A stretch of DNA of 64,000 bases from Pedobacter glucosidilyticus DSM 23534 (lineage in GTDB: Bacteria > Bacteroidota > Bacteroidia > Sphingobacteriales > Sphingobacteriaceae), in contig NZ_AULF01000013.1 in NCBI RefSeq assembly GCF_000425145.1, positions 1 to 64,000 of the forward strand, read 5' to 3'. Position numbers and translations under genes: made by a program. Of the stretch, positions 25,993 through 54,282 are shown piece by piece (position 1 is the first letter of the stretch; every line of letters starts with the position of its first letter). The notes beneath the pieces are model-generated. The model saw only the letters and a program-made list of their open reading frames with translations, had not been told where the DNA came from and did not search any database.

Positions 25993-26535
25993 TTAATCTC
26001 TCCCTTTATTTTTACCATTTCCATGTCCTTTTCCTTTATGGCCACCACGGTAGTAATCTCGATCATTTCGGTTATAAGAGGTATACTTTGATTTATAATA
26101 ACGATTATCGTCATGATGTCTATACCTTGGATGTCCTTTTACGACATAGTATCTAGGATTATTACTTCTATAAATAATAGCCTGTGATCTATTATGTTTA
26201 TATCTTGAATATCTTACTCTATGATCTCTAAAATGTAAATATGGTCTTGGAGAGTTAATTACTACTTTATAACCATTATACAAATCGTAATTTCTATATC
26301 TGTTAGGTAAAGAAGTGGCAAAAACCCAGTTTCCGTTACTCAGATAAATAAATTGTCTACTTGGTACGTAGTAATAACTTTCAATATCAGGTAAATAGTA
26401 ATAGTCTACTCGGTCATATCCAACTGGCCCCCAAACCGGTTGAGCACCTATATTTACATTGATGTTTACTTGTGATTGTGCGCCATGAGTGATAAAGCCT
26501 ATCATCACTATAGCAATGAAAATTGTCTTCTTCAT
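25993..26535 (-). CDS. Conserved secreted hypothetical protein, Tyr/Arg-rich
   Basis: A 180-residue protein with a signal peptide (MKKTIFIAIVMIGFITHGAQS). The mature part begins with QVNINVNIGAQPVWGPVGYD and YYYLPDIESYYYVPSRQFIYL, a pattern I recall from conserved Bacteroidota envelope proteins of unknown function. The C-terminal third is rich in Tyr, Arg and His and ends GKGHGNGKNKGRD. The frame is open for nine codons upstream (26562), but the ATG at 26535 starts the signal peptide. It lies 71 bp behind the DUF4382 gene with a hairpin between. No function is assigned. Confidence 0.7.
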   Translation of the reverse strand: MKKTIFIAIVMIGFITHGAQSQVNINVNIGAQPVWGPVGYDRVDYYYLPDIESYYYVPSRQFIYLSNGNWVFATSLPNRYRNYDLYNGYKVVINSPRPYLHFRDHRVRYSRYKHNRSQAIIYRSNNPRYYVVKGHPRYRHHDDNRYYKSKYTSYNRNDRDYYRGGHKGKGHGNGKNKGRD

Positions 26536-26566
26536 CTTTATATCTCTTTCTAGGTTAAACATTTAG

Positions 26567-26606: not shown

Positions 26607-27395
26607 TTACGGTTTAAGTGTAATAACTCCTAAACTTTTTATCTGACCAGCCATGAGGCTAACATTTGTAATGGTAGAATCTTTAAAGCCAGCTACAGGT
26701 ACAAATTTTACTGAGTAAATTCCAGCTCTTAATCCACCAACGGTGAATGCTCCAGTTTCTACATTAGGTATAGTACCAACAGTATCAGTACCTGATATCA
26801 CTAAAACTTCTGGAGCGCTTTCTAATGGTAGAACAGTACCAGAAATTAAACCTGTTGTTGCTGCGGTTATACCTCTTACTACAGGTTTTAAAAGATATTT
26901 ACCATTTCCAGTCTTAACAATTGATTTAGCTGCATCAAAATCTAACAAAAGGGAGTAAGCTACGCCTGATAATAATTCTGGATTTTCTGTTAGTTTAACT
27001 TTAAAACCTGATGATTGTCCGCTTGGCGTTTGTAGTGGCATTTCTTCACCATTAATTACAATGGTATTTCCTTCATCAAGTATCAGTCTTATTTCTGTAA
27101 TTTCTCCGGCGGGCATTTCTCCGGAAGCCACTAAAATATCAGGCTTACTAGTACCAATTCTAAAATCAAGGATATTAAAAATATTGGTTGTTACAGGAAA
27201 AACATAAGTCTCATCTCCAGAAACTAATATAATTTCTTTAACATCCAGATTAATAGCGTCAAAACTACCTGGCGCATCAGTCATCCTGATTTCTACTTTA
27301 CTTTTACCGTCAGTAATTTCTTCTTTCTGACAAGCAGAAAATAAACCTATACTAGATACCAATCCAATGATAGCGTATGCAAATTTCTTTTTCAT
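26607..27395 (-). CDS. DUF4382-type lipoprotein
   Basis: A 262-residue protein with a lipoprotein signal (GLFSAC, lipid-attached Cys22). The first domain (KVEIRMTDAPGSFDAINLDVKEI) matches the start of DUF4382 domains. The C-terminal part (LISGTVLPLE to AGQIKSLGVITLKP) looks like a carboxypeptidase-regulatory-like beta-sandwich. The frame is open further upstream to 27467, but the ATG at 27395 begins the lipoprotein signal. Function unknown. It diverges from the 27612 operon that encodes a two-component system. Confidence 0.78.
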   Translation of the reverse strand: MKKKFAYAIIGLVSSIGLFSACQKEEITDGKSKVEIRMTDAPGSFDAINLDVKEIILVSGDETYVFPVTTNIFNILDFRIGTSKPDILVASGEMPAGEITEIRLILDEGNTIVINGEEMPLQTPSGQSSGFKVKLTENPELLSGVAYSLLLDFDAAKSIVKTGNGKYLLKPVVRGITAATTGLISGTVLPLESAPEVLVISGTDTVGTIPNVETGAFTVGGLRAGIYSVKFVPVAGFKDSTITNVSLMAGQIKSLGVITLKP

Positions 27396-27492
27396 GTTTT
27401 TATATTCAAATGGATAAATAATAAGTTTTGTATAATCAAAGTTGTGAGGGGAAGATGAAAAGAACATGAAAAAGAAATTTTTTTTTATTTCT

Positions 27493-27513
27493 AAAATTTC
27501 ATCAAAATTTCAT
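27493..27513. promoter_or_regulatory. Tandem 11-bp direct repeats, OmpR/PhoB-type site
   Basis: AAAATTTCAT occurs at 27493-27502 and again at 27504-27513, an exact 11-bp period. OmpR/PhoB-family regulators bind such head-to-tail repeats one helical turn apart. The response regulator encoded at 28745 is the obvious candidate. The site lies between the divergent DUF4382 gene and the 27612 operon. Confidence 0.5.
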
Positions 27514-27570
27514 TTAAGGGGTACATCTTTGTTATACTTAACGAACTCCATGTTAAGGATAGGTAGATGA

Positions 27571-27600
27571 GTTTGTCTCCTCAGGGAGACAAACTTTTTT
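27571..27600 (+). terminator. Perfect terminator-like hairpin in a 5' leader
   Basis: GTTTGTCTCC / GGAGACAAAC is a perfect 10-bp stem with a TCAG loop and a run of six T. It lies only 11 bp before the ATG at 27612. No plus-strand gene lies upstream to be terminated, so it is either an attenuator or leader hairpin of the operon, or the 3' end of a small RNA starting in 27515-27570. A six-codon ORF (27550-27570) ends right at the stem. Confidence 0.7.
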
Positions 27601-27611
27601 ATATTTACAGC

Positions 27612-27878
27612 ATGAACAGAATTTTCCATCTTCGGTTATTGGCTTTTATATTATTTAGCGTATGTGCTGATCATGTTTTTGCGTCTGAAATTGAGTTTTA
27701 TCAAGAAAAAGATAAAAAAACGCTGGATGTAAAACCAGCAGACCCCAAAGAGACACAATCAAAGCCAGAGATAAAGCAAGTTCCTAAGGCAAAAAAACAA
27801 CCTAAACCTGCTAGTGTGAAGCCAAAAGTACAGCCTAAAAAGGTTAAAATTGTTAAGCCGAATATTAAAAAACGATAA
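27612..27878 (+). CDS. Small Lys/Pro-rich secreted protein
   Basis: An 88-residue protein with a signal peptide (MNRIFHLRLLAFILFSVCADHVFA). The mature region of about 64 residues is mostly Lys, Pro, Val and Gln (KPKVQPKKVKIVKPNIKKR) and strongly basic, with no recognisable domain. The frame is also open to an ATG at 27567 that would read through the leader hairpin; the ATG at 27612 is preferred because the signal peptide starts there. It is the first gene of an operon with a beta-barrel protein and a two-component system. It could be a periplasmic partner or signal for the kinase, but this is speculation. Confidence 0.55.
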   Translation: MNRIFHLRLLAFILFSVCADHVFASEIEFYQEKDKKTLDVKPADPKETQSKPEIKQVPKAKKQPKPASVKPKVQPKKVKIVKPNIKKR

Positions 27879-27892
27879 TTAATAGCTATCTC

Positions 27893-28738
27893 ATGATTAG
27901 AAAAATTACCTTTCTATTCATACTATTTAATGTGTGGACTTTAGCTTTAAAAGGGCAAACAGATACTTTGAAAGCGTCTAAAACATTAACATTAGCAGCT
28001 TTATATAATAGTAATATTAGTTATTACGGCCAAGTAACATCAGAAAGGTTGCCTTATGCTTTACTAAATGCAACACTAAGATTTCCATCTGGTTTATATT
28101 TCTCTGTAGGTTCTTATAGACTATTTAATGATAGTTCTTTCGTTTCGGAAGGAGATTTAGGAATAGGTTATGATTATGAAATTAATGATAAGTTAAGCGT
28201 TGGTCTTTCTTATTATAAATTCTTTTATCCTAAAAATTCCCCTTTACTACAAGCCGCCAATACCAATAATTTAAGTTTCATGGCAACTTATCATTTTCCT
28301 TGGTTTAAGAGTGTTTTTAGCACCGATTATTCTTTTGGTAAGGCAGATGATATTTTTATGAGTTTAGGCCAATCCAAAGATATTTCTTTGTTTAACATCA
28401 CAAAAAATGATTTAATATCTATTGAGCCTTGTATAGAGCTGGTTGCAGGTAGCCGAAATTTTTTTGAAACTTATACCATAGAGAGGGCAAAAAAAGGGAA
28501 AGGTAAAAACCCTTATACAGGAAATGGTAATGCAGGTAATACTATTATCACAACCGAAATTATTGAGACTTCTGCTTTTACCATATTGGCCTATAATTTT
28601 AAACTACCTATAAATTACAGTAGGGCAAATTATTTAGCAGAACTTAGCTATCAATTCACCATTTTAGGACATGAAACCGAGCCTGGTGTAAAACGAAATC
28701 AGTCTTTTTTTGGTTTAGCATTTTATTATCAATTCTAA
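27893..28738 (+). CDS. Predicted outer-membrane beta-barrel protein
   Basis: A 281-residue protein with a signal peptide ending near LKGQ. Alternating aromatic strands (SNISYYGQVTSER, LYFSVGSYRLF, LSVGLSYYKFF) and a terminal aromatic residue (LAFYYQF) are typical of outer-membrane barrels. No named family is recognised. It lies 14 nt after the Lys/Pro-rich gene and 6 nt before the response regulator, so all are likely one transcript. It may be a stress-related or signalling-linked barrel. Confidence 0.6.
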   Translation: MIRKITFLFILFNVWTLALKGQTDTLKASKTLTLAALYNSNISYYGQVTSERLPYALLNATLRFPSGLYFSVGSYRLFNDSSFVSEGDLGIGYDYEINDKLSVGLSYYKFFYPKNSPLLQAANTNNLSFMATYHFPWFKSVFSTDYSFGKADDIFMSLGQSKDISLFNITKNDLISIEPCIELVAGSRNFFETYTIERAKKGKGKNPYTGNGNAGNTIITTEIIETSAFTILAYNFKLPINYSRANYLAELSYQFTILGHETEPGVKRNQSFFGLAFYYQF

Positions 28739-28744
28739 TTCATT

Positions 28745-29422
28745 ATGAAAGTTTTAATCATTGAAGATGAAAAAACCTTGGCTTACGAAATGGAAACCTT
28801 TCTTAAAAAGGCTTTTTATGTTTGTGATTTGGCGCACACCTTTCATGACGGGTTAGAAAAGGCACAAATAAATTCTTACGATTTTATCCTGATTGATTTA
28901 GGTTTACCCGATGGTGATGGTCTTGATATCCTGAAAAGGATAAAAAAATCGCATCCAGAAGCGGCATTTATCATCATTACAGCCAGAGGGAGTTTAGAAG
29001 ATAAAATAACTGGTTTAGATTTGGGTGCTGATGATTATTTAGCAAAACCTTTTTATCTATTAGAATTGCAATCTAGAATGCAGGCTATTGCCCGTAGGAA
29101 GTTTAACGTTCAGGATGAGTTATTAACTGTAGGCGACTTTGAGATAGATATACAAAAACGCATAGTTATCCATAACAAACAAGAAATAGAACTGTCCAGA
29201 AAGGAATTTGATTTATTAAGCTATTTACTTCTACACAAAAACAGGGTGTTAACACGTATGCAATTAAGTGAGCATATTTGGGGTACCTTTGCAGATGTAG
29301 ATTATGATTCTAATTATATAGATGCACATATCAAGAATATTAGAAAAAAATTGAATGTTTTAGCATCTACAGAATGGTTAGAAACCGTTAGAGGTGTAGG
29401 TTATAGGATAAGGAAATCATGA
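28745..29422 (+). CDS. OmpR/PhoB-family response regulator
   Basis: A 225-residue regulator with an N-terminal receiver (IIEDE, phosphorylated Asp51 in LIDLGLPDGDG, conserved Lys in LAKPF). The C-terminal winged-helix domain includes ELSRKEFDLLSYLLLH and NYIDAHIKNIRKKL and ends GVGYRIRKS. Its start is 6 nt after the barrel gene and it overlaps the kinase by 4 nt. The tandem 11-bp repeats at 27493 are a plausible autoregulatory target. Confidence 0.93.
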   Translation: MKVLIIEDEKTLAYEMETFLKKAFYVCDLAHTFHDGLEKAQINSYDFILIDLGLPDGDGLDILKRIKKSHPEAAFIIITARGSLEDKITGLDLGADDYLAKPFYLLELQSRMQAIARRKFNVQDELLTVGDFEIDIQKRIVIHNKQEIELSRKEFDLLSYLLLHKNRVLTRMQLSEHIWGTFADVDYDSNYIDAHIKNIRKKLNVLASTEWLETVRGVGYRIRKS

Positions 29423-30753
29423 AGCTAGCTACCAAGTTACTCTTATTCATTGCAGGTTCTAAGCTTGTTGTTTCAGCTTTGTTTATTTTGTTATTGCCAT
29501 TTTTGGTAGATCAAATTGCATCAGAATACACCAATTATATTTTAAGAGAGCAACAACAAAAAGTAATGGACATTGTTGCTAAAAACGGCATTCAGTATTA
29601 TTTACAAGGAGAAGATAGTTATGGTAGTTATACACTTTTAAAGGAAGAGTATATTGCACTAGAGCCTCAGGTAGATAAAACCATCTTAGATACCATAAAA
29701 GACACTAAAAGAATTATAGAAGGAGATACACTTAACTATCGGGTTTTAAGTCATACATTCAATTATCAAAATAAACCTTATTTGTTAGAGGTTGGCAAAA
29801 CTTTAGCAAGTATCCACCAATACAACCAAACTCTGCAACGTTTTGCAATTTACGTTCTTATCGGTTTAATTGTTTTTACGGTATCAATTGATATTACTTT
29901 TACCCGTTTATTGGTAAAACCTCTGGGGCAAATTATTAAAACCAGATTGGTGAACCGTAAATTTCCCTTTAAAGATCAAGAGATTAAAATAAATACTAGT
30001 ACTACAGATTTTAGCTATCTGGATGAATCTATCTTGATTTTAATGAGGCAAATAAATGAAGCTTTTGCAAAAGAAAGAGAGTTTACTGCTAATGCATCGC
30101 ATGAGTTAATGACACCTATCAGTATTTTACAACATAAGCTAGAAAACTTATTAAGAGATGAAGAATTATCAGAATCTGCTGAATTAGGAATACTCGAAAC
30201 CATGAAAACTTTAGATAGGCTAAAAAAGATTTCGAGTTCTTTATTGCTTATCTCGAGGATAGATAATGAGCAATTTGTGAAAAGGGATGAAGTAAAACCC
30301 GTTGTATTGTTACAAGAAATTCTGGAAGAAATAAGTCATCGTTTAGAAGAGAAAAACATTCAAATTTATTTGAATTTAAAAGAAGATGTGCTGTTAAAGC
30401 AGGTTAATCACGATTTACTTTTTCAGCTTTTTTATAACCTCATTAATAATGCTATAAAATTCAATAAAGAAAACGGAACTATTGAAATCTTTGACGAGTT
30501 ATTAAGCTTTAATCAATACCAGATAACGGTAAAAGATACGGGTAGAGGCATCGCTAAAGCGCAAATTCCTTTTATATTTAATAGGTTTAGAAAAAGTAAT
30601 CAAGCAGAAAACCCTGGCTATGGTTTAGGCTTGGCTATTGTAAAAAGTATAGCAGCTTATCATCAGATAGATATAAGAGTAAATTCTGAGGTAGATAAAG
30701 GTACTAGTTTTAGGGTTGTATTTAATTTGTTTAATGATGCTTCAAAACTTTAA
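29419..30753 (+). CDS. Sensor histidine kinase
   Basis: A 444-residue membrane kinase. One N-terminal membrane segment, a periplasmic domain of about 110 residues and a second membrane segment (FAIYVLIGLIVFTVSIDI) precede HisKA with His228 (NASHELMTPIS) and an ATPase domain (NLINNAIKF, DTGRGIA, GYGLGLAI). It overlaps the response regulator by 4 nt and is its partner. The periplasmic domain has no recognised ligand family. The neighbouring barrel and basic peptide suggest an envelope signal. Confidence 0.92.
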   Translation: MKLATKLLLFIAGSKLVVSALFILLLPFLVDQIASEYTNYILREQQQKVMDIVAKNGIQYYLQGEDSYGSYTLLKEEYIALEPQVDKTILDTIKDTKRIIEGDTLNYRVLSHTFNYQNKPYLLEVGKTLASIHQYNQTLQRFAIYVLIGLIVFTVSIDITFTRLLVKPLGQIIKTRLVNRKFPFKDQEIKINTSTTDFSYLDESILILMRQINEAFAKEREFTANASHELMTPISILQHKLENLLRDEELSESAELGILETMKTLDRLKKISSSLLLISRIDNEQFVKRDEVKPVVLLQEILEEISHRLEEKNIQIYLNLKEDVLLKQVNHDLLFQLFYNLINNAIKFNKENGTIEIFDELLSFNQYQITVKDTGRGIAKAQIPFIFNRFRKSNQAENPGYGLGLAIVKSIAAYHQIDIRVNSEVDKGTSFRVVFNLFNDASKL

Positions 30754-54113: not shown

Positions 54114-54181
54114 TTCTCCAAAATAAATTAGAATTCTAAATTTTTGTTGCATTCTCATAAATAATCCCTAGTTTTAGCGAA

Positions 54182-54259
54182 ACTTTAGGGGTGTCCCGTT
54201 TGCGGGCTGAGATTATACCCTTTGAACCTGATGCAGTTCATACTGCCGAAGGGAAAAGT
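54182..54259 (+). ncRNA. TPP riboswitch (THI element)
   Basis: The conserved THI-box pieces appear in order: GGGGTGT, GGGCTGAGATTATACCC, TTTGAACCTGATGCAGTT, then ATACTGCCGAAGGGAAAAGT. A P1 stem pairs ACTTT with AAAGT. It lies in the 222-bp leader of the thi operon and would lower expression when thiamine diphosphate is plentiful. Confidence 0.95.
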
Positions 54260-54260
54260 G

Positions 54261-54282
54261 AAAAGCTTTCTATAGCTTTTTT
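54261..54282 (+). terminator. Expression-platform terminator of the TPP riboswitch
   Basis: AAAAGCT / AGCTTTT forms a stem with a 6-nt loop followed by more T, directly after the aptamer P1. This is the layout of a ligand-controlled terminator ahead of thiS. Confidence 0.7.

Follow-up and report, generated by a model that had tools for sequence, protein, structure and literature searches.

The intergenic region between positions 27395 and 27612 of the analysed window, a stretch of 64 kb from a 4.02-Mb genome of the family that includes Pedobacter, carries two outward-facing pairs of direct repeats, a Bacteroidota-type -7 element at a fixed distance behind each pair, and a conserved, covarying, terminator-like hairpin. 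The best reading, to which we assign a probability of slightly under one half (about 0.48), is an autoregulated divergent promoter which would give rise to a short terminated RNA with a function of its own, the operon behind it being expressed by read-through.

On one side, the region borders a gene on the minus strand (26607–27395) that encodes a DUF4382 protein (PF14321, E 2.3e-28); the statement of an initial annotation of this DNA that no plus-strand gene precedes the hairpin was correct. On the other side lies an operon of four genes on the plus strand. The first gene (27612–27878) encodes a small protein of 88 amino acids with, as judged by eye, a signal-peptide-like N terminus and a tail rich in K, P and Q. 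A start at 27567, which would render the hairpin coding, was rejected in favour of 27612 because G012, which together with G013 is the nearest relative carrying the locus, has an in-frame TAG in the hairpin loop, between the two starts; the variation of the loop length by 1–2 nt among relatives also opposes a coding hairpin. The second gene (27893–28738) encodes an outer-membrane beta-barrel-like protein whose match to PF13505 (E 7e-4) is under the Pfam cut-off. In G013 (L010/L041) the barrel gene consists of two overlapping pieces and is probably frameshifted. The third gene (28745–29422) encodes the response regulator of the OmpR/PhoB type recognised initially, with the domains Response_reg (PF00072) and Trans_reg_C (PF00486) above cut-off; its nearest NCBIfam models are of the PmrA, RppA, CopR and PhoB types, all under cut-off. 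Lastly, a sensor histidine kinase with HisKA and HATPase_c domains above cut-off is encoded at 29419–30753.

Two exact repeats 11 bp apart had been reported in front of this operon, and both copies of AAAATTTCAT are found with this spacing at 27493–27502 and 27504–27513. They constitute half of a mirrored, outward-facing pair, the minus-strand partner of which had been missed: a direct repeat TTTCAT-N5-TTTCAT directed toward the operon (27497–27513, plus strand) and an exact one directed toward the DUF4382 gene (27455–27471, minus strand). The first reading had also missed the identical distance of 14 bp on both sides between the repeat and the TTTG of a -7 element, namely CATCTTTG (27524–27531, plus strand) and CAACTTTG (27437–27444, minus strand). 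Both TTTG motifs are preceded by an A three bases upstream, fitting TAnnTTTG, which the accessible part of PMC7366714 gives as the consensus of the Bacteroidota -7 element. The transcript of the plus strand would begin near 27538. Operators of the OmpR/PhoB family, such as PhoB- and PmrA-type boxes, are composed of direct half-sites every 11 bp. The repeats resemble such operators in their 11-bp periodicity, in their location just upstream of the core promoter and in the presence of a family regulator in the operon; in contrast, the half-site is TTTCAT, the -7 element of the Bacteroidota follows at a fixed 14 bp, and the sites form a mirrored outward pair. From linkage and geometry, the repeats are assigned to the operon's own OmpR/PhoB-type regulator as its predicted sites, a proposal of the initial annotation which conservation and fixed spacing strongly support.

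The sites were compared across 44 orthologous loci, 43 from 399 genomes of the family (barrel-family E at most 5.6e-92) and one from a named genome; the loci L082, L083, L084, L087 and L089 (G285, G100, G255, G342 and G249) were left out as duplicates, recognised by matching leaders or matching site contexts. The repeat toward the operon is retained with at most one mismatch in all 44 loci and the repeat toward the DUF4382 gene in 42 of them, with TTTG at +14 in 41/44 loci on the plus side and in each of the 42 loci with a minus-strand repeat. The gap between the paired sites measures 15 bp in 17 loci and 24–25 bp in 18, two clusters that differ by about one helical turn. A shared gene order accompanies the sites: the DUF4382 gene is divergent throughout (44/44), opposite genes for a small secreted protein, a beta-barrel protein and the response regulator, the last of which stands behind the barrel gene in all 32 loci that were long enough and in all 12 that were extended later. 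Among 28 further, weaker barrel-family matches, none has a divergent TTTCAT pair.

Within the 4.02-Mb genome, the exact composite TTTCAT-N5-TTTCAT-N14-TTTG occurs twice, against 0.02 per genome expected from base composition; both copies are at the locus, and no further exact composite site of the regulator was found elsewhere in the genome. Repeats of AT-rich DNA beside a random hairpin are a very improbable explanation of the region. A chance origin could draw on one further exact TTTCAT-N5-TTTCAT pair in the genome that lacks a gene context (C1:201562; the reversed-pattern control gives 5) and on the composite with one or two mismatches, whose 31 further matches are only about twice the 16 of the reversed pattern, but it leaves unexplained that both sites and their spacing persist in 42–44 of 44 loci, that the hairpin covaries and that conservation exceeds that of the gene. 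The pair at C1:201562 was rejected as a third site of the regulator, because TTTG is missing at +14 and the sequence that follows offers no convincing gene.

The hairpin in front of the first gene (P2, 27569–27600, plus strand) had been described as perfect, of 10 bp and followed by six T. Hairpin and T6 are present, and the perfect stem is of 11 bp, 27570–27580 pairing with 27585–27595 around a TCAG loop, with T6 at 27595–27600; the ATG at 27612 follows 11 nt after the T run, as had been noted. Within the 64-kb window, both strands considered, P2 is the sole perfect stem of at least 9 bp that precedes T5; compared with dinucleotide shuffles, the local fold reaches z = -2.98. At sequence level, it displays the stable stem directly before a U tract that characterizes intrinsic terminators, and most transcripts probably stop at it early, yielding a small RNA. 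The hairpin model R1 matches it with E 2.4e-4 and yields nothing else convincing in this genome; a match at C34:20953 (30.2 bits) was dropped since it lacks a TTTCAT site. A strict test that required GTTT...AAAC ends and a minimum of 8 pairs out of 9 found the hairpin in 25 of the 44 orthologous loci and not in the other 19, which include L101 (G261), whose weaker hairpin was scored absent. The leaders of some of these 19 loci are shorter than 25 nt, and the operon can therefore do without the hairpin.

The strict test fixes stem positions 1–4 and leaves positions 5–9 free. Among the latter, four pairs have changed on both sides among relatives, and covariation amounts to 15 cells changed on both sides, compared with an average of 4.0 in 500 shuffles, none of which reached this value; these counts come from a model-based alignment of 45 matches in 32 distinct rows which was fitted to the structure and hence is biased toward it. 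Slid versions of the structure give at most one pair changed on both sides. Alignment A8 included four antisense rows and A9, from which these and also L095 were missing, gave the same picture, while A4, A5 and A7 were excluded from the counts for misalignment or antisense rows. The G-U pairs among the stem changes favour an RNA structure over a DNA palindrome.

The same stem could instead leave transcription unterminated and act within the 5' UTR, either by raising mRNA stability or by adjusting the initiation of translation at the ATG 11 nt further on; we consider this unlikely. Such a role would suit its position next to the conserved sequence context TTTATATTTA that immediately precedes the ATG, and the U tract is broken by a C (TTTCTTTATATTTA) in many Pedobacter. 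By the rules that hold for E. coli, terminators with an interrupted U tract are weak. Hairpins of the window type and of the G246 type, however, are followed by an uninterrupted run of 6–7 T, and in the orphan copies described below the start-codon context TATATTTA has decayed and T7 has been kept. This TATATTTA just before the ATG may also be a second promoter; species with short leaders carry it inside the presumed transcript.

In genus g14, which by matching leaders includes Pedobacter ginsenosidimutans and others, the hairpin model matches 44 of 145 genomes, and the matches other than that in G460 were inspected. Those in G152 and G243 are unrelated, with neither TTTCAT sites nor two-component genes. 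A match of the hairpin model in G174 was likewise dropped after inspection. A further hairpin, P1 (CTTAAC/GTTAAG, 27537–27557, plus strand), is a weak candidate with z = -0.8 here; it forms in one of the predicted folds but is absent from the longer one, is clearer in some Pedobacter and lacks support in many leaders. The underlying scan comprised 39 leader rows with valid values for P2, of which nine with no TTTG in the expected place (G436, G273, G384, G372b, G318b, G424, G303b, G231 and G375) have no values for P1 or the upstream ORF, and G252 was scored from a later TTTG. The sequence GTGGCGCAGAT, a candidate single-stranded seed, recurs in many Pedobacter leaders at two different loci (L168, L178, L078, L144 and relatives).

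The hairpin may also act in cis as a conditional terminator, a protein, an RNA or the translation of the leader deciding on the output of the small-protein, barrel, regulator and kinase genes, with the short RNA as a by-product; we regard this attenuator, the main rival of the preferred reading, as possible, if doubtful. It is favoured by the short and steady distance between hairpin and start codon and by the position of the inspected Pedobacter hairpins, which lie directly before the small gene apart from the two orphan copies and two weak matches that are unrelated. Against it stands that no leader peptide is conserved. The six-codon ORF noted at the foot of the stem exists (27550–27570, plus strand; ATG TTA AGG ATA GGT AGA TGA), and its peptide MLRIGR is identical in the two nearest relatives only; other hairpin-bearing leaders read MYGGF, MNMNMF, MKTVSFKVG, longer frames or none, and a functional part for it could not be upheld, the ORF being judged incidental. 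Complementarity between the linker and the 5' arm of the stem extends over 8 bp here; for the window, G013 and G012, 29–38 of 200 shuffles did equally well. In most other leaders it does not exceed shuffles, and no antiterminator common to the family was found.

The RNA is conserved much more strongly than the gene that follows it. Over about 65 positions that start just past the -7 element and extend to the T run, the RNA of the window differs from that of G013 at 0/65 and from that of G012 at 1/65 positions, compared to 40/267 and 53/267 differences in the first gene (Fisher 1.6e-4 and 5.6e-5, respectively). Within the G246 group, the pairs compared differ at 0–2 of 63 positions in the RNA and at 26–38 of 285–288 in the gene. 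Among close species, the stem and the RNA upstream of it are equally conserved, which argues against an attenuator.

An observation in favour of a separate RNA comes from two sister genomes, G122 and G204. Besides the complete operon, both possess a second copy of both sites, the promoter, P1, the linker, P2 and T7, located next to a different gene, a homologue of that at 25993–26562 of the window. Behind the T run of this orphan copy, one genome lacks the small gene and the other has only a degenerate remainder of it; in the stretch examined, genes for a regulator or a kinase were not found. The orphan RNA differs between the two genomes at 1 of 70 positions, against 32/248 in the left flank (Fisher 0.003) and 81/277 at third codon positions of the next gene (2e-8). 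The hairpin of the complete operon in these genomes has lost one pair and, at -7.6 and -8.2 kcal/mol, is weaker than that of every other row (-12.6 to -18.1 kcal/mol). G366, G372, G318 and G303 each contain a pair of such two-component operons, of which just one has the hairpin in each of these four genomes. This pattern and the orphan are as expected if the RNA functions beyond the gene behind it, and the retention of RNA and terminator without that gene speaks against an attenuator. The orphan copy tilts the choice toward a separate short RNA. It falls short of proof because it represents one lineage and because a gene that by eye is AraC-like lies downstream in the same orientation, at 106 and 231 nt. 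Complements of GTGGCGCAGAT were searched in the genomes of eight relatives, with one conserved 11-mer from relatives rather than the window's own RNA as the seed; among 35 matches, which include the RNA itself, 30 were read in context and no shared start-codon target was found.

A second two-component locus occurs in several Pedobacter (L166, L167, L169, L172–L174, L179 and L183), with the same small gene, regulator and kinase and without the barrel gene. It is divergent from a gene that by eye resembles that at 25993–26562 of the window, mostly followed by two genes that, again by eye, are BlaI/BlaR1-like.

The evidence from genus g44 points the other way. Here the hairpin model matches nine genomes, and the three that were opened (G143, G139 and G147) share the order small gene, barrel, regulator and kinase, preceded by a gene for 109–119 amino acids, all on one strand, with the hairpin between the latter and the small gene. 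No divergent TTTCAT pair was seen in the g44 leaders inspected. That the hairpin keeps its place within an extended operon where a TTTCAT promoter is not visible tilts the balance back toward a role in cis, as an internal terminator or attenuator, which for g44 is the simplest reading. The g44 operon is longer in L244, L245 and L247, with genes for 109–119 and 646–650 amino acids upstream and the hairpin internal. The proposal of the initial annotation, attenuation or a short terminated RNA, is supported in part: the conserved, covarying, terminator-like hairpin fits such a scheme, the orphan leaning to the short RNA and g44 to the cis role.

For the preferred reading of an autoregulated promoter with a released RNA, the following course of events is proposed. 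The response regulator would bind both outward-facing TTTCAT-N5-TTTCAT sites and activate the DUF4382 gene and the operon through the -7 elements 14 bp past each site. The operon transcript, beginning at about 27538, would reach the strong hairpin and U tract that end at about 27600, where most transcripts would be released as an RNA of approximately 60–65 nt, and the small-protein, barrel, regulator and kinase genes would be expressed by read-through. The RNA set free would also be functional in itself. Visible in the sequence are the sites, their spacing, the gene order and a hairpin that covaries, is strongly conserved and, in one lineage, persists without the gene behind it; from these we infer that the regulator binds and activates, that transcription terminates at the hairpin and frees the RNA, and that the RNA might act in trans. 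More tentatively, a two-component system of the Sphingobacteriaceae may produce its leader RNA as an output in its own right, and in one lineage the regulator sites and the promoter may have been retained, along with the RNA and its terminator, as an independent small-RNA gene once the operon genes at that location had been lost.

No family of Rfam 15 matched the locus at gathering score. With a relaxed threshold, one family of the Bacteroidota was listed, FopS (RF04319), with 19.5 bits against a cut-off of 56. Elsewhere in the 64-kb window, a TPP riboswitch at 54177–54271 (76.3 bits) is the sole match at gathering score. The FopS and GibS RNAs of Bacteroides are described, in the accessible part of the source, as 65–70 nt long, with a promoter of the sigma-ABfr type, a 3' terminator hairpin and a single-stranded 5' part (PMC11697453). 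The leader RNA predicted here would be similar in size and form; in contrast, it scores under the FopS cut-off and occurs once in its genome, compared with the 14 copies given there. In E. coli, IspZ and ChiZ are small RNAs derived from 5' UTRs, and IspZ (81 and 60 nt) is attributed to intrinsic termination in the text available (PMC7815308). These share with the present prediction a short RNA that ends inside a 5' UTR; judged by that text, what sets the element apart is its position before a two-component operon, its occurrence in a lineage of the Bacteroidota and an orphan copy without the gene. Pedo-repair (RF01715), listed for Pedobacter in the portion consulted of PMC2864571, is likewise a structured RNA candidate from the same bacterial group, but the locus gives no Rfam match at gathering score. 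A description of the leader element was not found in searches of the open-access literature. Leader-derived small RNAs are known elsewhere, and the leader element of the Sphingobacteriaceae would be a new one among them, with an unusual evolutionary record.

If the proposed reading is true, a conserved RNA element would be added to a phylum whose regulation by RNA has been little explored beyond Bacteroides, and this RNA would come with a ready-made regulator and binding site. Species that have the RNA in the operon, those with an orphan copy and those with none would then provide a natural experiment in which its function can be tested.
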